Shown here piece by piece: positions 19,467-64,000 of a stretch of DNA of 64,000 bases; within the stretch, counting starts at the first letter, position 1, and each line of letters opens with the position of its first letter. A program made the position numbers and the translations under genes. Source of the stretch: Methylomusa anaerophila (GTDB lineage Bacteria; Bacillota; Negativicutes; Sporomusales; Sporomusaceae). The notes under the pieces were generated by a model. The model was not told the origin of the DNA. It worked only from the letters and a program-made list of their open reading frames with translations, and did no database searches. Location: NCBI RefSeq assembly GCF_003966895.1, contig NZ_AP018449.1, positions 131,424 to 195,423 of the forward strand, given 5' to 3'.

Positions 19467-19523
19467 AAGAAAAACAGCAGCTTTATGCCGTAATCCCCTC
19501 CCCATACCTCGTGGGTAAATAAT

Positions 19524-19690
19524 GGTGATTGTCAGACAGGCAGTTCTCCTGACTCTGGATCATGGCTTACTTAAACCTTCCCAAGACTTACGTCTCAGTG
19601 GCATATCTTAAGCTTGCTCCCCATTACAGTGGCGGGACCGCACCGGCTTTTAACCGGACTTCCCTATTAAGCCCATTGGGCACCTGTCTC
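19524..19690 (-). promoter_or_regulatory. Cobalamin riboswitch
   Basis: On the minus strand the classic elements appear in order: AATAGGGAAG, the paired CCGGTTAAAAGCCGG arm, GCGGTCCCGCCACTGT (the B12 box GCCACTGT at 19626-19633), then GAGTCAGGAGAACTGCCTGTC, closed by GGTG/CACC pairing of P1. It leads into cbiK about 390 bases downstream through two terminators, so adenosylcobalamin should repress the chelatase. Confidence 0.95.
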
Positions 19691-19859
19691 ATGTATATGA
19701 AGTTAGTGAACTCTTATAATTCAGTTTATAAGACAATCAGCTGCTTGTCAATACTTTGATAATAAGATTTGTTACTATTGCAAATATTTACTGGTTATAA
19801 TCCCCCGGCCCATAGTCAGGCTGTACGAATATACTGCCGGCGTCTTTGTCAACACTTTT

Positions 19860-25474: not shown

Positions 25475-25528
25475 AAAAGGCCTGGAATGCCTGTAAAGCA
25501 ATCCCGGCCTTTAGTCATTCTAATCAGC
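25475..25528 (-). promoter_or_regulatory. AGGC leader element, copy 1 (FtsX operon, proximal)
   Basis: Minus strand: CTGA-TTAG-AATGA-CTAA-AGGC, then a hairpin closed by GGCC with a U-rich tail. Hairpin arms TTAG/CTAA. Third in order of transcription of three tandem copies upstream of the small membrane protein gene. Confidence 0.75.
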
Positions 25529-25562
25529 CTGGAAATAATACTGCATCACAAATGCTACAATG

Positions 25563-25629
25563 AAAAAGCTTGGTTTTACACTCATTTCAGCAATAAGTGC
25601 AAAACCAAGCCTCCAGTATTTCTGGTCAA
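25563..25629 (-). promoter_or_regulatory. AGGC leader element, copy 2 (FtsX operon, middle)
   Basis: Minus strand: TTGA-CCAG-AAATA-CTGG-AGGC, then the long stem CTTGGTTTTGCAC / GTGTAAAACCAAG with T5. Hairpin arms CCAG/CTGG. Confidence 0.75.
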
Positions 25630-25666
25630 CTTTGAATAGCGTCAAATATTCGTTTGCAAAAATAAT

Positions 25667-25723
25667 AAAAGCTATATCCCATAACTACACGGGATGCAGC
25701 CTCTAGTTCTTCCGACCAGTCAG
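25667..25723 (-). promoter_or_regulatory. AGGC leader element, copy 3 (FtsX operon, distal)
   Basis: Minus strand: CTGA-CTGG-TCGGAAGAA-CTAG-AGGC, then stem with CATCCC/GGGATA and a T-rich tail. Arms CTGG/CTAG pair through one G-U. First to be transcribed from the promoter at 25760-25788. Confidence 0.72.
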
Positions 25724-25759
25724 CAATGCCTCTTTACATTCTAAACCAGTTTTATGCTT

Positions 25760-30991: not shown

Positions 30992-31304
30992 ATATAATTT
31001 TTGCGAAAAAGCTGTGAGCAGTAAGAGTAGTCATGTAAACTTTAGCTCAGCGAGCCGGTGACCGTTTATCGGAGGTGTGATGACCGGCCTAAAGCGCATG
31101 GTGAATGGTCCTGTGAGCTGTCCACCGAACGTTTTTTCAACCAGTAGGCTGGGCCGGTTGCCACCGTTAAGAGGATAAGGTATCGAATATATATTCTGTT
31201 ATATATTCCGTACTTGAAGGAGATAGGAAATTTTTTTATTTTCCTAACTAGGGTGGTACCGCGGAACCATTTCGCCCCTGTGTATGGGGTGAAATGGTTT
31301 TTTT
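30992..31304 (+). promoter_or_regulatory. T-box leader, probably tryptophan-responsive
   Basis: The T-box sequence AGGGTGGTACCGCGG is at 31250-31264. It is followed by terminator stem AACCATTTCGCCCC / GGGGTGAAATGGTT (31265-31299) and a T7 run. Upstream, Stem I contains GCTCAGCGAGCCGGTGACCG, typical of the distal Stem I region. A TGG triplet in GAATGG at 31106-31108 fits the specifier position; with the downstream gene this indicates tRNA-Trp. Uncharged tRNA-Trp would allow read-through. Confidence 0.93.
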
Positions 31305-36021: not shown

Positions 36022-37323
<1,302 letters not shown>

Positions 37324-37343: not shown

Positions 37344-37404
37344 AAAAAAGAAGACCAGCGCAGACTCTAACTCTGCCCGGCCTTCAGTAAGGTTACTGAT
37401 CAGC
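37344..37404 (-). promoter_or_regulatory. AGGC leader element, copy 6 (metY, proximal)
   Basis: Minus strand: CTGA-TCAG-TAACCTTA-CTGA-AGGC, then stem GGCCGGGCAGA / TCTGCGCTGGTC and T6. It ends about 24 bases before the metY start, close to the ribosome-binding site. Confidence 0.77.
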
Positions 37405-37607
37405 TCGTTTATCAATTATCTATTAAATTTGGTCACTAACCATCCTATCCCTTTACGTACTTGCGCCGGAAAAATAAGAAAAACGCTAACCGCATCCTTT
37501 TTGACGACCGGCAGGCAAAGGATAGCCTTATTATAAGAGAGGTTAAGCGATAGATGTCGAAGCGTTAATAAGGCTGTCCTGCGCCGTCCTAAACATCTAT
37601 ACTATAC

Positions 37608-37650
37608 AAAAAGGCTAGGGCACTCCCTAGCCTTCAGTCTCTCTGATCAG
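37608..37650 (-). promoter_or_regulatory. AGGC leader element, copy 7 (metY, distal)
   Basis: Minus strand: CTGA-TCAG-AGAGA-CTGA-AGGC, then the perfect stem AGGCTAGGG / CCCTAGCCT with T5. The clearest copy of the family. Confidence 0.8.
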
Positions 37651-37671
37651 CAATGGTAAATAATTCACTTT

Positions 37672-45873: not shown

Positions 45874-46803
45874 TTAATTGTCCTGAAACAGGACGGTGCT
45901 GATATACCGCTCGCCTGTATCCGGCAATATCGCCACAACCAATTTCCCCTCATTTTCCCGGCGTTTGGCAAGCTGCAGCGCCGCAAATGCAGCAGCCCCG
46001 GAAGAAATTCCGACCAGTATGCCTTCTTCTCTTGCCAACCGGCGCGCAGTCTCTACCGCTTCCTCATTTTTTACTTTGTAAATTTCATCCACAATGTTGA
46101 GATTTAACACGTTAGGCACAAAGCCGGCGCCAATCCCCTGAATCTTATGGGGCCCAGGCTTTCCGCCGGAAAGGACCGGGGAATCAAACGGCTCAACAGC
46201 TATTACTTTGATTTCTGGATTACGTTTCTTAAGCACTTCGCCAACACCGGTAATTGTACCGCCTGTACCAACGCCGCCGACAATAATGCCAACCTTGCCG
46301 TCCGTGTCCGTCCATATTTCCGCCGCCGTTGTGGCCCGGTGAATTTCCGGGTTAGCCGGGTTATTGAACTGCTGGGGAATAAAAGAATTGGGAGTTTGGG
46401 CTGCCAATTCCTCGGCTTTACGCACCGCGCCGGGCATCCCTTCGGCGCCGGGTGTTAGAACCAGTTCCGCGCCATACCCCTTCAGTAAACTGCGTCGTTC
46501 AACACTCATCGTCTCCGGCATTGTAAGTATCAGCCGGTATCCTCTTGCCGCGGCGATAAACGCCAAAGCAATCCCGGTATTACCGCTTGTCGGTTCGATA
46601 ATCACAGTGTCTTTATTAATAAGTCCTTTTTCTTCAGCGTCCTTAAGCATACTGAAGCCGATGCGGTCTTTGACGCTGCCGCCGGGATTGAACAACTCCA
46701 ATTTCACCGCAACTTCGGCATTGGCTCCATCTGTCACCCGGTTGAGCTTTAATAGCGGCGTACCACCGATTAAATCTGTTACACTATTGGCAATTCTGGA
46801 CAT
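45874..46803 (-). CDS. cysK: Cysteine synthase A
   Basis: A 309-residue O-acetylserine sulfhydrylase. The PLP lysine is in [27 protein letters not shown] forms the substrate loop, and [16 protein letters not shown] the phosphate-binding loop. Start at ATG 46803 after GAGGAGTG; a frame nine codons longer would translate the ribosome-binding site. A leader of about 470 bases contains an AGGC element, so expression is likely attenuated. Confidence 0.95.
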
Positions 46804-47090: not shown

Positions 47091-47157
47091 AAAAAAGGCA
47101 AAGACAGATTCCTGTTAAGGGAATCCTTCTTTGCCTTCAGTATTTACTACCGATCAG
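47091..47157 (-). promoter_or_regulatory. AGGC leader element, copy 9 (cysK)
   Basis: Minus strand: CTGA-TCGG-TAGTAAATA-CTGA-AGGC, then stem AGGCAAAGAAGGATTCCC / GGAATCTGTCTTTGCCT and T6. Arms TCGG/CTGA pair through one G-U. About 290 bases upstream of the cysK start. Confidence 0.77.
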
Positions 47158-47278
47158 TCAAATCCGCTATGCAGTTGCTGCCTGCCGTATCTGCAGCCCT
47201 CGGGATTTCAATACCCGCCAGGTCCACACGGATAAAAATTCACAATTTCGAAGCCGGAGGCGTAACATCTTGCCCTTT

Positions 47279-48039: not shown

Positions 48040-48104
48040 AAAAAGGCAAAGACCCATCCCTTTATCAGGAACCTTCTTTGCCTTCAGTATGTGCGACTGA
48101 TCAG
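48040..48104 (-). promoter_or_regulatory. AGGC leader element, copy 10 (TatD-linked radical SAM)
   Basis: Minus strand: CTGA-TCAG-TCGCACATA-CTGA-AGGC, then stem AGGCAAAGAAGG / GGTCTTTGCCT with T5, directly followed by the ribosome-binding site AAAGGAGG. Confidence 0.8.
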
Positions 48105-48133
48105 TCAAATATGAAATTCATATATTATATACT

Positions 48134-56575: not shown

Positions 56576-57625
56576 TTACAATGTCTTGCCGGCATTGACG
56601 GCACTGGAAATGACAAGATCTGAAGGTTTGACTTTTCCTTTGGGAATCACATTGGAATTTTCCAGATCTTTAATCCAGGGAACAATCAGGGACTCATCGA
56701 TTTCAGTACCAGCTGCAAAGTAGTGGGTGGCGTTAACCGGCACCCCAATCCAATCCTCAGTAATTTTCCGGGCCTCTTCCGGATGCTCATTCGCCCATTT
56801 TTGCGCCTTGACAATTGCCCGCGAGAATTTTTTGACAGTCTCAGGGTTTTTGGCGATAAAATCCTCGTTAAAAACATAGTAGGTTATGCCGCCGGCAACC
56901 GTAATTTTGGCGTCCAGACTATCGGCAATTTTGACCATACCGGCTTCTTCCATCGACTTATAAAACGGCGGATGCACGCCGGCTACGGCCACCAGTCCCT
57001 GTTTCAAAGCTTGAACAGCCTGAATGTCCGGCATGGTAACCCATTCAATTTTATCTCTGGCTACCCCTTGATTATCGGCGATATTATTTGCCAGGAAATC
57101 GGCGCAAATATTAGTAGTTATGGTAGAAAACTTCAACTGCCCCGGTAGTTTGTTCAGGTCGGCAAAAGAATGAATATCCGGATTATTTTTGGGATTTACA
57201 TACCAATTCATATGGCGCAGCTTGGGATCCTGATCCGGCAACGGATCAATCCCGCCTGTAACCACCCCTTTGATCTTGGCGCCGCCGGCTATTGCCACTG
57301 CCATCTGGTTGGGATGAAAGCCACCGCCGATATCATTGTTGCCGTTGAGAACCGACGGAATCTGTTGAGCTGGCTGCGTATCCCCCGTAAAAACGATCTC
57401 CAGTCCTTCTTCTTTGAAAAACCCTTGCGTCACACCCACAGCAAACGGTGTGGAGCCGCAATCCTTTCGCGTCCAGGTTTTAAGGGGAATCAGCCCCTTA
57501 TCTTTAGCGGTTGCATCACTGACAGTCTGTCTATTGCCAAGATTGGCGCCATAGGCAACAGCGCCTAAAATGGCCACACTAACCAGACCTATTATAATTT
57601 TCTTCACAGTTTTTTTATCAGCCAT
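56576..57625 (-). CDS. ABC transporter binding protein, SsuA/TauA-like (set 1)
   Basis: A 349-residue periplasmic binding protein of the sulfonate/nitrate/NMT1 superfamily with an N-terminal hydrophobic signal anchor (residues 8-28). Typical regions: VGVTQGFFKEEGLEIVFTGD, IPSVLNGNNDIGGG and INDFIAKNPETVKKF-type FIAKNPETVKKFSRAIVKAQ. AAGGAGC precedes the ATG. It is the third gene of a permease-permease-binding protein operon. An alkanesulfonate or other organosulfur ligand is inferred from family and regulon, not shown. Confidence 0.82.
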   Translation of the reverse strand: MADKKTVKKIIIGLVSVAILGAVAYGANLGNRQTVSDATAKDKGLIPLKTWTRKDCGSTPFAVGVTQGFFKEEGLEIVFTGDTQPAQQIPSVLNGNNDIGGGFHPNQMAVAIAGGAKIKGVVTGGIDPLPDQDPKLRHMNWYVNPKNNPDIHSFADLNKLPGQLKFSTITTNICADFLANNIADNQGVARDKIEWVTMPDIQAVQALKQGLVAVAGVHPPFYKSMEEAGMVKIADSLDAKITVAGGITYYVFNEDFIAKNPETVKKFSRAIVKAQKWANEHPEEARKITEDWIGVPVNATHYFAAGTEIDESLIVPWIKDLENSNVIPKGKVKPSDLVISSAVNAGKTL

Positions 57626-57644: not shown

Positions 57645-58415
57645 TTAATATTCAGGTGTATTTTCTTTCCAATTGATTAATCTGCGTTCCAGCTTGCTAA
57701 ACACGAAATTGAGTAACAAGCCTAATGTGGATATGGTGACGGTCGCCGCAAACAGCCTGGGAATTTGATAATTATTTTGGGCATTCCATACCAGCCAACC
57801 CAAACCGCTGCTGGCGCCAATCATCTCGGCGGCGATGAGCATAAAGAAAGCCACGCCTGAGCTCATTTTTATGCCGTGGAAAATACCGGGTAACGCAGCC
57901 GGAAAAATGACCTTAGTAAATAAGGCTGGGCCGCTTACTCCCATGGAACGGGCCGACTTGAGCAGCAACGGTTCCACCCCTTTTATGCCGGTAACGGTGT
58001 TGAGCAGAATGGGCCACAGGCAAACCCAAAAAATCATGGCGACTTTGGATACTTCGCCAATACCGAATAATAAGATGAAGACAGGAAATAAAGCAAAGGG
58101 GTTTACTTCTCCCAGCAGCCGTAAGACCGGGGTAACAATACGTTCAAACAACTTAAATGAGCCTCCCAGCAGGAAACCCAGAGGAACCCCAATGATAACC
58201 GCCAGTAAGAAACCAAAGAGCGCCCGGCCTAAACTAACTCCAATGTGTTTGGTTAATACCCCGCTGAGCAGAAGTTCCCAAACAGTGCTCAGCACCTCCG
58301 ACGGCGGCGATATAAATGTATGCGGGACCCAGCCGGCACGAGGAGCGATTTCCCAAATAATCACAAACACGATAATGGATATGCCGTTTGTCAGCCCATT
58401 TGTCAGCCAGGACAA
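57645..58415 (-). CDS. ABC transporter permease, SsuC/TauC-like (set 1, second)
   Basis: A 256-residue permease (IGVSLGRALFGFLLAVIIGV, EAA loop KSARSMGVSGPALFTKVIFP). The TTG at 58415 has no convincing Shine-Dalgarno. In frame, 25 codons upstream, an ATA codon (58488-58490) sits 7 bases after a strong AAAGGGGGG, so initiation may occur at a non-standard ATA, or an ATG has mutated. The extension adds a basic cytoplasmic N-terminus. Confidence 0.8.
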   Translation of the reverse strand: MSWLTNGLTNGISIIVFVIIWEIAPRAGWVPHTFISPPSEVLSTVWELLLSGVLTKHIGVSLGRALFGFLLAVIIGVPLGFLLGGSFKLFERIVTPVLRLLGEVNPFALFPVFILLFGIGEVSKVAMIFWVCLWPILLNTVTGIKGVEPLLLKSARSMGVSGPALFTKVIFPAALPGIFHGIKMSSGVAFFMLIAAEMIGASSGLGWLVWNAQNNYQIPRLFAATVTISTLGLLLNFVFSKLERRLINWKENTPEY

Positions 58416-58559: not shown

Positions 58560-59345
58560 TCAGGTGCTGGTTTCAGAATCCTGCCGCCAATCCACAACAC
58601 TCTCTTCCAGCCAGTGCAGCAGGTAGTTTATTGCCATTCCCAAAAGAGCAATGGTGATGGTTGCCGCAAATAAGCGGGGAATTATATTATTCATGGCCGA
58701 ATTGTGAATCACCCAGCCTAAGCCAGCGCTGGCGCCAATCATTTCCGCGGCGATGAGCATAAGGAAAGCATGGGAAGCACCAGTACGTACCCCGGTAAAA
58801 ATAACCGGCGCCGTACCCGGCAAAATGACCTTGCGGAAAATGGTCATCCGGTCCGCCCCCATGGACCTGGCGCTTTTAATATACAGCGGATCTACCTGTT
58901 GAATCCCGGCAATGGTAGTAAAAAGCACCGGCCAAATGCTGGACCAGAAAATAATGCTTACTTTGGCAACTTCGCCTATACCGAAAAATAAGATAAAGAT
59001 GGGAAACAGGGAAAAAGCGTTCACTTGCCCGAGCAAGCGCAACAAGGGCTGCATATGGCGGCCCAATGCCGGAAAAACTCCCCCCAGCAGAAAACCGAGC
59101 GGTACCGCCAGCGCGACAGCCAGCGCCAAGCCGATAAAAGTCCGCTGCAAGCTGGCTGCTATATGGATGAATAAATCCCCATTAGCCGCCAATTTTCCTG
59201 CAGCCAGCAGCACTTCCGACAAAGGCGGGATAAATTGTGCGTCAACCAAACCGATACGGGGAGCGATTTCCCACAAAAGGAAAAAAGCAATAATCCCGGA
59301 CACATCAATCAACCACTCGATGAAACTATTTTGTGACTCTTTCAT
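58560..59345 (-). CDS. ABC transporter permease, SsuC/TauC-like (set 1, first)
   Basis: A 261-residue permease of the same family (IHIAASLQRTFIGLALAVAL, KSARSMGADRMTIFRKVILP). GAGGGGGAG precedes the ATG. First gene of the operon behind an AGGC leader element. The pair of different permeases may form a heterodimer. No ATPase gene lies in this operon. Confidence 0.88.
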   Translation of the reverse strand: MKESQNSFIEWLIDVSGIIAFFLLWEIAPRIGLVDAQFIPPLSEVLLAAGKLAANGDLFIHIAASLQRTFIGLALAVALAVPLGFLLGGVFPALGRHMQPLLRLLGQVNAFSLFPIFILFFGIGEVAKVSIIFWSSIWPVLFTTIAGIQQVDPLYIKSARSMGADRMTIFRKVILPGTAPVIFTGVRTGASHAFLMLIAAEMIGASAGLGWVIHNSAMNNIIPRLFAATITIALLGMAINYLLHWLEESVVDWRQDSETST

Positions 59346-59375: not shown

Positions 59376-59439
59376 AAAAAAGGCCGGAAAGATATTCTCA
59401 AAGAGATACCTTACCAGCCTTTAGTTTTTAACTAATCAG
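59376..59439 (-). promoter_or_regulatory. AGGC leader element, copy 12 (ABC set 1)
   Basis: Minus strand: CTGA-TTAG-TTAAAAA-CTAA-AGGC (arms extend to TTAGTT/AACTAA), then stem AGGCTGGTAAGGTATCTC / GATATCTTTCCGGCCT with T6. Upstream the bases TATTATTTCCAGG are shared with copy 1. A TTGACA-type promoter lies at about 59490-59515. Confidence 0.77.
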
Positions 59440-59696
59440 CCTGGAAATAATAGATTATTAATCTCTTTTTAAATTACAATATCTTTGCAGAATTGTCAAT
59501 AGGGTATTGTAAGTACTAGACAAAGCATACCAACAATACCAACAAAGTTTTTATTGACAAAACCATTATTGCAGGCTTACATTAAAATTATCTTAACATC
59601 CGCAAATACGCCGAGGCTGAACAGGTAAAATGACAGTCTGATTTTAGAGAAATATCTCTTTTCTATGACGATCCTGAGCCAAGAGAGGAAATATTG

Positions 59697-60521: not shown

Positions 60522-61559
60522 TTATTGGACTGCTACATTTTCAAATTCACGAGTGATAAGATCCGAAGGTTTTAACTGCCCCGGGGTAAGTCCTCCACTA
60601 TTCTCCAGATCCTTAATCCATGGAGTCAGATCGCTTTCTTTTATTTCGGATGTAGTCGCAAAATAATGCACCCCTGTAACCGGCACGTTGATCCAATCCG
60701 CAGTCAGTTTCACTGCTTCCTGGGGATTTTCGTCGCTCCATTTCTGAGCGGCCACTATCGCTCTGACAAACTTTTTAACCGTTTCGGGATTGTTCTTGAT
60801 AAAGTCATCTTTGAAATAGTACAGGCTGGACCCGGCTGATTCACCCAGTCCGGTATCGGTTGAATCGGCAATTAATACCAGTCCCGCGTCTTCTGCCGAT
60901 TTGTAGTAAGGCGGGTGTACCTGGGCCACATCGAGAATACCCTGGCTGGTAGACTGAATGACTGCTATATCATTGGTAAAGGTAACCCATTCAAACCGGT
61001 CCCTGGGTACCCCTGCTTTATCCAGCAAAGTATTGAAAAGAAATTGGTTGCAGCTATTGGTAGTTCCGTCGGTTTTTATTTGTTGACCCGGTTTATAGTT
61101 TTTCAGATCGGCAATTGACTTAATACCGGATGCCGGGTTAGCATAAAATCTCATATGGCGAAATACGGGGTCCACATTAGCAGGAGGCTCAATCTGCTGC
61201 CTGGCGACTGCAGTTACGGCTGCTCCGCCTGCTTTGGCAATAGCCAGCATATTGGGCTGAGCTGTGCCGATGTCATTATTCCCGTTTAATACGGAAGGAA
61301 GAATCTGAGTTGCAATCAGTTCGCCGGTATATACAAGTTTTAGTCCTTCTTTTTCCAGGAATCCTTTTTTGTCAGCAACGACCCAGGCAGTTGAAGCGCA
61401 TGTTTTGTAAGTTGGAACCCTGATTTCGATCAAGTCCTTCTTATCCGAACTGCTTAGCTGTACGGTTCCCTTCCGGGCGCCAAAACCTACGGCCACCAGC
61501 ACGGCCAGAACCACCACGCCGACGATTGCCAATTTAATATTTCTCTTTTTGTCCGTCAA
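60522..61559 (-). CDS. ABC transporter binding protein, SsuA/TauA-like (set 2)
   Basis: A 345-residue paralogue of the set 1 binding protein (VADKKGFLEKEGLKLVYTGE, LPSVLNGNNDIGTA, FIKNNPETVKKFVRAIVAAQ), with a signal anchor. TTG start after AAAGGAGAGG. The different ligand-site surroundings (AQPNMLAIAKAGG versus GFHPNQMAVAIAGG in set 1) suggest related but distinct substrates. Confidence 0.82.
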   Translation of the reverse strand: MTDKKRNIKLAIVGVVVLAVLVAVGFGARKGTVQLSSSDKKDLIEIRVPTYKTCASTAWVVADKKGFLEKEGLKLVYTGELIATQILPSVLNGNNDIGTAQPNMLAIAKAGGAAVTAVARQQIEPPANVDPVFRHMRFYANPASGIKSIADLKNYKPGQQIKTDGTTNSCNQFLFNTLLDKAGVPRDRFEWVTFTNDIAVIQSTSQGILDVAQVHPPYYKSAEDAGLVLIADSTDTGLGESAGSSLYYFKDDFIKNNPETVKKFVRAIVAAQKWSDENPQEAVKLTADWINVPVTGVHYFATTSEIKESDLTPWIKDLENSGGLTPGQLKPSDLITREFENVAVQ

Positions 61560-61590: not shown

Positions 61591-62397
61591 TTAATTTTTA
61601 TTTCCCTCAAAGGCATTTTCCCGCCAAACCAGCAATCTCGCTTCCAGCAACCGGAATACCTTATTAATAATAAGGCCGATAATGGCGATAAGCATCGTAG
61701 CTCCGAAAAGCTGCGTTATCTTGTAAGTTTCCTGGGCATTTCTTGTCAACCATCCCATCCCGCTGCTCGACCCCAGCATTTCGGCAGCTATAACCATGAT
61801 AAACGCTAACTGAGCCCCAATTTTCAGTCCGTTAAAAATACCGGGCATCGCCGCCGGCAGGATAACCTTGAAAAAAAGGGTTTGTTTACTTGCGCCCATG
61901 GAACGGCCTGTCTTTAGCAATAAAGGATCAACCCCCTTGATACCCATAATGGTATTAAAAATAATCGGCCATTGGCAGACCCAATAGATCATCGAGACTT
62001 TACTCAATTCACCAATTCCGAGAATAAGAATGAATACAGGAAATATAGCAAAGGGATTTACTTTTTCCAGCAGCCGGAAAAAGGGCAAAAATAATTTTTC
62101 TAGGGTTCTAAACATCCCACCCAGCAAAAAGCCTGCCGCTATGCCTACTGCCGCAGCTAAAAACAGGCCAATCGCCGCTCGCTGAAGACTGATTGCCATA
62201 TGCTTGGATAACTCACCTTGTATAGCCAACAAATATAGTTTTTCAACTACCGAAAAAAATGTGGGAATAATTGTTTTATCCAACACGCCGTATCTCGGCA
62301 GCACTTCCCAAGCGACAAAAAACAATATCACCGGTAAGTTGCTGCCAAAGATAAAGTTTCTGATTTGGACTAACGCCTTTACCAATCCATTACTCAT
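61591..62397 (-). CDS. ABC transporter permease, SsuC/TauC-like (set 2, second)
   Basis: A permease of about 268 residues (MAISLQRAAIGLFLAAAVGI, KTGRSMGASKQTLFFKVILP). ATG 62397 is preferred; the TTG at 62430 has no Shine-Dalgarno. Paralogue of the set 1 second permease. Confidence 0.86.
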   Translation of the reverse strand: MSNGLVKALVQIRNFIFGSNLPVILFFVAWEVLPRYGVLDKTIIPTFFSVVEKLYLLAIQGELSKHMAISLQRAAIGLFLAAAVGIAAGFLLGGMFRTLEKLFLPFFRLLEKVNPFAIFPVFILILGIGELSKVSMIYWVCQWPIIFNTIMGIKGVDPLLLKTGRSMGASKQTLFFKVILPAAMPGIFNGLKIGAQLAFIMVIAAEMLGSSSGMGWLTRNAQETYKITQLFGATMLIAIIGLIINKVFRLLEARLLVWRENAFEGNKN

Positions 62398-62432: not shown

Positions 62433-63221
62433 TTAATTGGTCGATTCCGGTTCAGTTTCCCGCCAGGTAATGAGAGTATTCTCAAGCCATACCAGAAAAT
62501 AATTGATAATAAGGCCAATAACGGCTATGGCGAGGATTCCCAAATAAAGCCTGGGTATCTGCCAGTTATCCTCTGAATTCCGGATCAGCCAGCCCAGACC
62601 CATATTGGCGCCAAGCCATTCAGCCCCAATCAACAGCATAAACGCCATCGTGGTCCCGGTTCTGATACCTGTAAAAATTTGCATAGCCGCTCCCGGAAGA
62701 AAAACCTTGAAGAACATGGAGAATCCGTTTACCCCCATGGCCTTGGCACATTTAATCACCAGCGGATCAACCTGCTTTACCCCCTCCATAGTAGTGAATA
62801 AAATCGGCCAAAAGGAAGCCCAGAATATGATGCTGTATTTTCCCCCCTCCCCCACTCCGAACAAAATAAGAAATAGCGGCAAAAGGGTCATGGTGTTGAT
62901 TTGGGCACATAGATTCATGAACGGCTCAAAATATTTGGCAACCTTGGGCAGCCACCCCCCTAAGATAAAACCCAAGGGAAGTCCAATGATAATTGATATG
63001 AATAAACCGATAAAGACTCTTTCCAGGCTCACCGCTATGTGCACATACATGTCGCCATTTTTCACCAGTACCCACCCTGCTTCCAGCACTTTGGAAACCG
63101 GCGGAATAAATTTGGGATTGGCCCAACCGATAACGGGTGCTACCTGCCATAATAGAAAGAACAAAACAATAAGATAGTAACTGATAAATTGGTCGTTTAT
63201 TTTACGCACCCAATTGAGCAT
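62433..63221 (-). CDS. ABC transporter permease, SsuC/TauC-like (set 2, first)
   Basis: A permease of about 262 residues (VHIAVSLERVFIGLFISIII, KCAKAMGVNGFSMFFKVFLP). ATG 63221 follows GAAGGAAGG. First gene of the second ABC operon behind an AGGC leader element. Confidence 0.87.
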   Translation of the reverse strand: MLNWVRKINDQFISYYLIVLFFLLWQVAPVIGWANPKFIPPVSKVLEAGWVLVKNGDMYVHIAVSLERVFIGLFISIIIGLPLGFILGGWLPKVAKYFEPFMNLCAQINTMTLLPLFLILFGVGEGGKYSIIFWASFWPILFTTMEGVKQVDPLVIKCAKAMGVNGFSMFFKVFLPGAAMQIFTGIRTGTTMAFMLLIGAEWLGANMGLGWLIRNSEDNWQIPRLYLGILAIAVIGLIINYFLVWLENTLITWRETEPESTN

Positions 63222-63282: not shown

Positions 63283-63347
63283 AAAAAGAGACCAAGGCTG
63301 TTTTCCAAAAAAACAGTTCCTTAGCCTCCAGTGTGATAACCGGTCAG
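63283..63347 (-). promoter_or_regulatory. AGGC leader element, copy 14 (ABC set 2)
   Basis: Minus strand: CTGA-CCGG-TTATCACA-CTGG-AGGC, then stem AGGCTAAGGAACTGTTTT / AAAACAGCCTTGGTCT and T5. Arms CCGG/CTGG pair through one G-U. Confidence 0.76.
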
Positions 63348-63397
63348 CATCCGTTATTAATTTAACGATTCAATAACTATAATAAAAGCTTAGTTGT

Positions 63398-63514: not shown

Positions 63515-63543
63515 TTGACAAGACATTAGATATCATATATTCT
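63515..63543 (+). promoter_or_regulatory. Candidate promoter of the nitrogenase-like gene
   Basis: Plus strand TTGACA, 17-base spacer, TATTCT. It would give a leader of about 250 bases before the GTG at 63805. Confidence 0.5.
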
Positions 63544-63629
63544 ATTAACTGTAGGAATTATTACTAAATTATAAAAATAAGCTTTTTGCACATTGTTACC
63601 CGCTACGTGAATAACTGCATAAAACTTAA

Positions 63630-63684
63630 CTGACTTAAGAAATGAAGAGGTTAAGCCACAATAGGGTGGTTTAGCCTCTTTTCT
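63630..63684 (+). promoter_or_regulatory. Leader hairpin, possibly a divergent AGGC element
   Basis: Plus strand: CTGA-CTT-AAGAAATG-AAG-AGG, followed by stem AGAGGTTAAGCCAC / GTGGTTTAGCCTCT and TTTCTTT. The order CTGA, small hairpin, AGG at the base of a terminator is the same as in the other copies, but the hairpin sequence and the C of AGGC are not conserved. Placed in front of the nitrogenase-like gene. Confidence 0.4.
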
Positions 63685-63804
63685 TTATTGTAACAAGCAA
63701 AATTAGCATTGCCCCTGTCCTGCAAACTGCCAATTCATTATTTATTTTTCCTGGTTCATTTGGGTCTGAGTCTTAAAAAACCATCACAATTAGGAGGTTA
63801 TCAA

Positions 63805-64000
63805 GTGACTACTTTCATCGAACGCGCGAAATCCACCTGCGCTCTTGGCGGTGCAATTGTTACCGTATCGGCCCTGCCGAAAGCAATTCCCATCGTTCAT
63901 GGCTCGGGAGGTTGCGCGACCATGTTGTCAGGTACGTATAACTCGGCAAGCGGCTACAAGGGTTCCGGGTATTGCAGCGGCCATATGACACCCACCTCGA
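63805..64000 (+). CDS. Nitrogenase-like component 1 subunit, partial
   Basis: The first 65 residues of a NifD/NifK/NifE-superfamily protein, cut by the window edge. STCALGGAI and HGSGGCATMLSG correspond to the two N-terminal cysteine segments that hold the P-cluster or its equivalent. GTG start after AGGAGG and a 7-base spacer. The N-terminus is very short, as in group IV/nitrogenase-like proteins. Adjacent sulfur-type ABC transporters make a methylthio-alkane-reductase-like or other organosulfur reductase role plausible; nitrogen fixation or F430/chlorophyll-type reduction cannot be ruled out from this fragment. Confidence 0.8.
   Translation, partial: MTTFIERAKSTCALGGAIVTVSALPKAIPIVHGSGGCATMLSGTYNSASGYKGSGYCSGHMTPTS

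Follow-up and report, generated by a model that had tools for sequence, protein, structure and literature searches.

The window analysed here, a stretch of 64,000 nucleotides (C1:131424-195423) from the 4.78 Mb single-contig genome of Methylomusa anaerophila, ends inside a forward-strand gene (gene calls were made with a simple script). Its last 196 bases (window 63805-64000) had been read in the initial annotation as the N terminus of a nitrogenase component 1-like protein with both expected cysteine segments and a very short N-terminal region, and the complete K-type gene (C1:195228-196568, 446 amino acids) agrees with this reading: the start codon is a GTG at window 63805 with a ribosome-binding site AGGAGG at 63792-63797, the segments STCALGG (C12) and GSGGC (C37) are in place, a third one, VSGC (C102), follows in the full protein, and the N-terminal region is indeed very short. 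The best PDB match of the K protein is MarK (E 7e-73), and many component-1 families are also matched far beyond chance. Past position 64,000, where partner subunits and a NifH-like reductase had been anticipated, a D-type partner lies 3′ of the K gene (C1:196585-198156, 523 amino acids; best PDB match MarD, E 1e-58), whereas no NifH-like gene adjoins the two, the genome having two shared ones elsewhere. We call these K and D subunits pair A; the closest named relatives are from Sporomusa sp. KB1 (85%) and Pelosinus (72-81%).

The plus-strand leader of pair A contains a match to a sigma-70-like promoter, TTGACA-17-TATTCT (63515-63543), by consensus only, and a strong intrinsic terminator of 16 pairs (63644-63681) fused to the AGG of a divergent copy of a sulfur leader element (CTGACTT...AAGAGG with a 3-bp stem, 63625-63659, 11.4 bits). 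Such a divergent copy had been suspected in the initial annotation; it reaches E 0.004 within a 321-base stretch and would be inconspicuous in a search of the whole window. The 85% identical ortholog at locus L040 has a full leader copy (30.4 bits, L040:8516-8551), 94 nt before the K gene. The two SsuA/SsuC-type operons described earlier as lying under this element are both found on the minus strand. One copy (59409-59444, 33.2 bits) precedes an SsuC-like ABC permease (58560-59345), then SsuC (57645-58415) and SsuA (56576-57625); the other (63316-63352, 27.7 bits) precedes an SsuC-SsuC-SsuA operon made of two SsuC-like ABC permeases (62433-63221 and 61591-62397), which cluster with other permeases, and an SsuA-like substrate-binding protein (60522-61559). 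Further minus-strand copies stand before metY (36022-37320; two in tandem within 37372-37655, at 37622-37655 and 37372-37408), before cysK (45874-46803; 47125-47162), before a TIGR04100 radical SAM gene (48072-48109) and, as three tandem elements (25499-25728), before a DUF4418/MacB-like operon. In relatives, genes similar to this operon are again neighbours of nitrogenase-like ones. Rfam places a Cobalamin riboswitch at window 19522-19702 (minus strand) and a T-box leader at 31005-31282 (plus strand).

The leader is 36 nt long and consists of CUGA, a hairpin of 4-6 pairs and AGGC; in most cases an intrinsic terminator is joined directly to it. Our initial loose descriptor gave 168 hits against 110 in shuffles and was replaced by an anchored test and the models R1 and R2. 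In the anchored test, 35 CTGA-N10-18-AGGC anchors close with at least 4 stem pairs where chance would give about 1, and the covariance model finds about 60 copies in the genome at E below 0.4, with sulfur genes downstream, so that the sulfur-linked element of the initial annotation is real. The covariation test used copies found by a sequence-only model in which pairing is ignored; 51 cells were changed on both sides of the hairpin against 19.6 in shuffles, and the outermost hairpin pair is standard in all 104 leader copies. Terminator fusion (42 of 59 copies checked), together with the simple antiterminator pairing of the element's 5′ flank with the terminator arm that was tested and not found, would fit a stereotyped terminator of the upstream genes and not a regulator. 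We consider this highly improbable: all 36 first copies are intergenic, in sense orientation and before a same-strand gene, mostly within 350 nt; the downstream genes are largely of one functional class, here and in other genomes; the hairpin and the CUGA/AGGC ends are kept beyond the needs of a terminator, with compensatory changes; and tandem copies occur.

The genes downstream of the leader, in this genome and in relatives, are ssuABC, nitrogenase-like pairs, the nifH and nifB of those pairs, cysK, metY, metZ and metNIQ, and further UroD, sulfite reductase, a DUF2292/OscA-like gene and a (2S)-3-sulfopropanediol dehydratase (1534 bits, cut-off 1000); some of the metabolic genes were recognised by eye from sequence and not by family search, as was an apparent cystine symporter in relatives. 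The dehydratase is one of two glycyl radical enzymes that, with an activase, follow a leader at C1:1997869-2006700 (L179), where another copy precedes SsuCBA. At C1:199380-204739, 727749-732176 and 1785444-1788700, the leader stands before loci that combine SsuA/SsuC-like genes with 2-hydroxyacyl-CoA dehydratase-like/double-cubane-type proteins and BadF-type ATPases; here the genome may have another ATP-driven system that reduces sulfur compounds. Leader hits are present in 52 of 60 relatives, while most other genomes of the phylum have few; the range covers the class throughout and loci of Geobacter/Geomonas. Copy number tracks the number of component-1 genes over 60 genomes (Spearman 0.77, uncorrected for shared ancestry and genome size). 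Please note that the loci L040-L119 were chosen by a nitrogenase-like query, and leader associations there are therefore biased, unlike those of the genome-wide search.

In about 345 kb searched, dozens of copies included, the leader reaches no gathering score of Rfam 15, and at permissive thresholds it gives chance matches only; matches elsewhere in the same sequence are limited to Cobalamin, T-box and one SAM riboswitch. It resembles the SAM riboswitch and the Cys T-box in having a 5′ structure joined to a terminator, sulfur genes downstream and tandem copies, but its CUGA-hairpin-AGGC architecture matches none of the Rfam 15 families. A 2010 attenuator survey mentions an element, left without a name, that precedes a sulfonate transporter (PMC2965389). 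The leader marks a sulfur regulon; no published description was found in the literature searched, and it may be a new RNA class.

Component-1 genes are abundant in this genome (32 by Pfam PF00148). The alpha subunits of Mo (C1:2962947), V (509147) and Fe (723189) nitrogenases pass the NCBIfam cut-offs, in loci at C1:2961965-2969591, 504493-512201 and 721375-725640, respectively; the remaining genes form two NifEN-like pairs and eleven nitrogenase-like pairs, A to K, located in this order at 195, 213, 225, 275, 312, 320, 325, 403, 487, 1605 and 4415 kb. Most of the eleven lie under the leader. Only two extra NifH genes are present, one (294437) beside NifB (293082) and one (322854) beside pair F. 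Among relatives of the same family, component-1 genes reach 26 or more per genome, and it was noted before that group IV genomes can hold several copies (PMC9147875). Pair I (C1:487037-489750, L021) is very divergent and component-1-like, without most cluster cysteines, and its neighbours are apparent TonB/ExbBD-type and periplasmic binding protein genes. ATP sulfurylase (PF01747) was not found in the genome by family search; a description of the genome as one without sulfate assimilation was dropped in view of a strong PF01507 match, possibly CysD or CysH.

Pair A scores far below the NCBIfam cut-offs for NifD, NifK (92 of 427 bits), VnfD, AnfD and NifEN, and likewise for CfbD, BchN/ChlN and BchY/Z, and no tetrapyrrole genes are among its neighbours in the neighbourhoods examined; a grouping with NifD/NifK, CfbD, BchN or ChlN, followed along the DNA by nif or tetrapyrrole genes, the outcome that the initial annotation had set against its own proposal, did not occur. 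The superfamily tree proposed there as a check was built from the D subunit only (76 rows, by a quick tree search, with MarD as the Mar reference) and puts pair A in the superclade of Mar, the methylthio-alkane reductase. One clade of 40 rows holds pairs A, D and K with 37 relatives (SH-aLRT 96), another of 28 rows holds pairs B, C, E, H and J with MarD (SH-aLRT 99), and pairs F, G and I are on long branches. Pair A is thus placed by this tree in a sister clade of Mar, not in Mar itself.

The MarD positions were read across 96 relatives and our own sequences. Pair A has all of the ligands C66, C91, C158, C270 and H429, and so do practically all of the 74 further members of the two clades that were surveyed, with a single gap at C66. 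The six P-cluster cysteines of pair A are the equivalents of C66, C91 and C158 in D and C12, C37 and C102 in K, and the [Fe8S9C] ligands Cys270 and His429 of D are found in 25 of 25 relatives. The pocket is different: every protein on the Mar side (the B, C, E, H and J types) has Arg428, Trp195 and His375, whereas the position of Arg428 is deleted throughout the A, D and K type proteins, and residues 195 and 375 are Val and Asn in all 25 relatives of pair A. Arg428-His429 has been considered a possible Mar hallmark (PMC12552129). With the metal ligands kept and the pocket residues changed, pair A combines the predicted metal sites of Mar with another pocket, and V195, N375 and the loss of R428 could mean chemistry other than C-S cleavage. 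We hold it unlikely that pair A is Mar in the strict sense, with methylthio compounds as substrates and methanethiol as the product: MarD and MarK are the closest solved relatives and all cluster ligands are in common, but pair A is outside the MarD-containing clade, the three pocket residues are changed and fixed, its relatives adjoin cysK and not metY, and pairs B, C, E, H and J fit Mar far better.

The predicted P-cluster and [Fe8S9C]-type cluster would also suit a nitrogenase of group IV (Nfa-like) or a reserve enzyme for nitrogen fixation, and a nitrogen-fixing role has been proposed for the Nfa-type group IV proteins of Endomicrobium and Heliophilum (PMC9147875). We see very little room for this, as Mo, V and Fe nitrogenases are already in the genome and the relatives of pair A have cysK and genes for sulfur transporters, not nitrogen genes, as their neighbours. 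In 23 of 26 relatives, which come from Bacillota and from MAGs of termite-gut Deltaproteobacteria, cysK is directly 3′ of D (of the three exceptions, one is cut off by the end of its contig), and SsuABC, nifX-like, nifH and nifB genes recur nearby. This arrangement points to sulfide for CysK as the likely product, and the likely metabolic partner of pair A would be cysteine synthase, not methionine synthesis. Two observations speak against our reading of pair A: cysK does not adjoin it in the window's own genome, where two cysK genes carry the leader, and its own leader copy is weak. The adjoining transporters may also serve other systems. Several Mar-side pairs are accompanied by metY or MetNIQ, and we infer that the enzymes may be split by likely product, i.e., sulfide for cysteine and methanethiol for methionine. 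Relatives of pair K carry a UroD methyltransferase, a corrinoid protein and cysK, reminiscent of the group IV genes that neighbour mlp methyltransferase clusters of type I (PMC10418091), whereas pair A is without methyltransferase and corrinoid partners. The pair K locus itself (C1:4411832-4420374, L027) contains UroD methyltransferase, DUF1638, corrinoid protein and cysK genes, and a SAM riboswitch adjoins it (L027:15183-15279).

An Isr-type isethionate/sulfonate reductase releasing sulfite was also considered, since pair A has SsuABC neighbours and isrBHDK is accompanied by ssuCAB in Rhodobacter capsulatus (PMC11423573), likewise a nitrogenase-like enzyme in sulfur scavenging. Of the P-cluster cysteines, however, IsrD has the Cys88 equivalent alone, and it is devoid of cofactor ligands, with no equivalents of Cys275 and His442 (PMC11423573), whereas pair A keeps the full ligand set, and no IsrB-type radical SAM protein adjoins pair A. 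Pair F (C1:320067-323729, L018) fits Isr instead: it has its own NifH and lies in one gene run with SsuBCA (317313-320036) and a radical SAM gene (316025), and its ligand positions read D66, C91, P158, N270 and N429. This matches the published degenerate ligand set of IsrD, so the Isr label was removed from pair A, for which we now hold it unlikely; by the published features of IsrD/IsrK, pair F is likely the isethionate reductase of this genome. It is possible that pair A is a different, cofactor-type sulfonate reductase. If its product were sulfite, as proposed for Isr, CysK would first need a sulfite reductase, and sulfite-reductase-like genes exist in this genome.

We return to our preferred reading, to which we assign a probability of roughly 0.7: pair A would be a nitrogenase-like reductase, driven by ATP and belonging to a cysK-linked clade sister to Mar, most likely cleaving C-S bonds to harvest sulfur rather than fixing N2, and working as follows. 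Under sulfur shortage, transcription would run through the leader terminators, and SsuABC-type transporters would bring in an organosulfur anion. NifB (C1:293082) would supply an [Fe8S9C] cluster, which the shared NifH-like protein (C1:294437) would charge with electrons via the P-cluster; the D subunit would then reductively cleave a C-S bond, and the freed inorganic sulfur, most likely sulfide, would be fixed by cysteine synthase. We lean slightly toward sulfide as the product. The family, ligands, clade, neighbourhood and shared leader of pair A are read from sequence, while its reaction, cofactor, product and direction of regulation are what we infer. The presence of the leader on the nitrogenase-like nifH/nifB as well as on transporters, cysK and metY was counted for a sulfur role of pair A. 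The family within the Mar superclade, the cysK/SsuABC neighbours and the leader-marked regulon support the organosulfur-scavenging system that the initial annotation had proposed after methylthio-alkane reductases; the kind of system stands, with the refinement that pair A belongs to a sister clade in place of Mar itself. We give even odds to the wider proposal that the leader is an undescribed regulatory RNA, either a riboswitch or a protein-read attenuator, responding to sulfur status and acting on about 45 operons including most nitrogenase-like pairs and NifH/NifB, and that the pair A clade is a new enzyme family supplying cysteine synthase with sulfide from organosulfur compounds.

Compared with MarHDK of Rhodospirillum rubrum (PDB 9FMG), pair A is alike in fold family, P-cluster cysteines, Cys270/His429 ligands, NifB and NifH partners and, by inference, C-S chemistry; it differs in belonging to the sister clade, in lacking Arg428 and carrying V195 and N375, in its K-D gene order, in having cysK instead of metY, and in a reductase that is shared and non-adjacent. 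To our knowledge, functions are known for only a few nitrogenase-like C-S reductases, and pair A is predicted to be one unlike Mar and Isr as described so far. With eleven pairs, only two extra reductases, and cysteine- and methionine-linked branches, told apart by gene neighbourhood, that have different fixed active-site residues, this genome offers a useful set for studies of the adaptation of a single nitrogenase scaffold to different sulfur substrates. That these enzymes serve sulfur, not nitrogen, nutrition is independently indicated by their common leader, which may itself be a new RNA regulator across this class of anaerobes and relatives of Geobacter.
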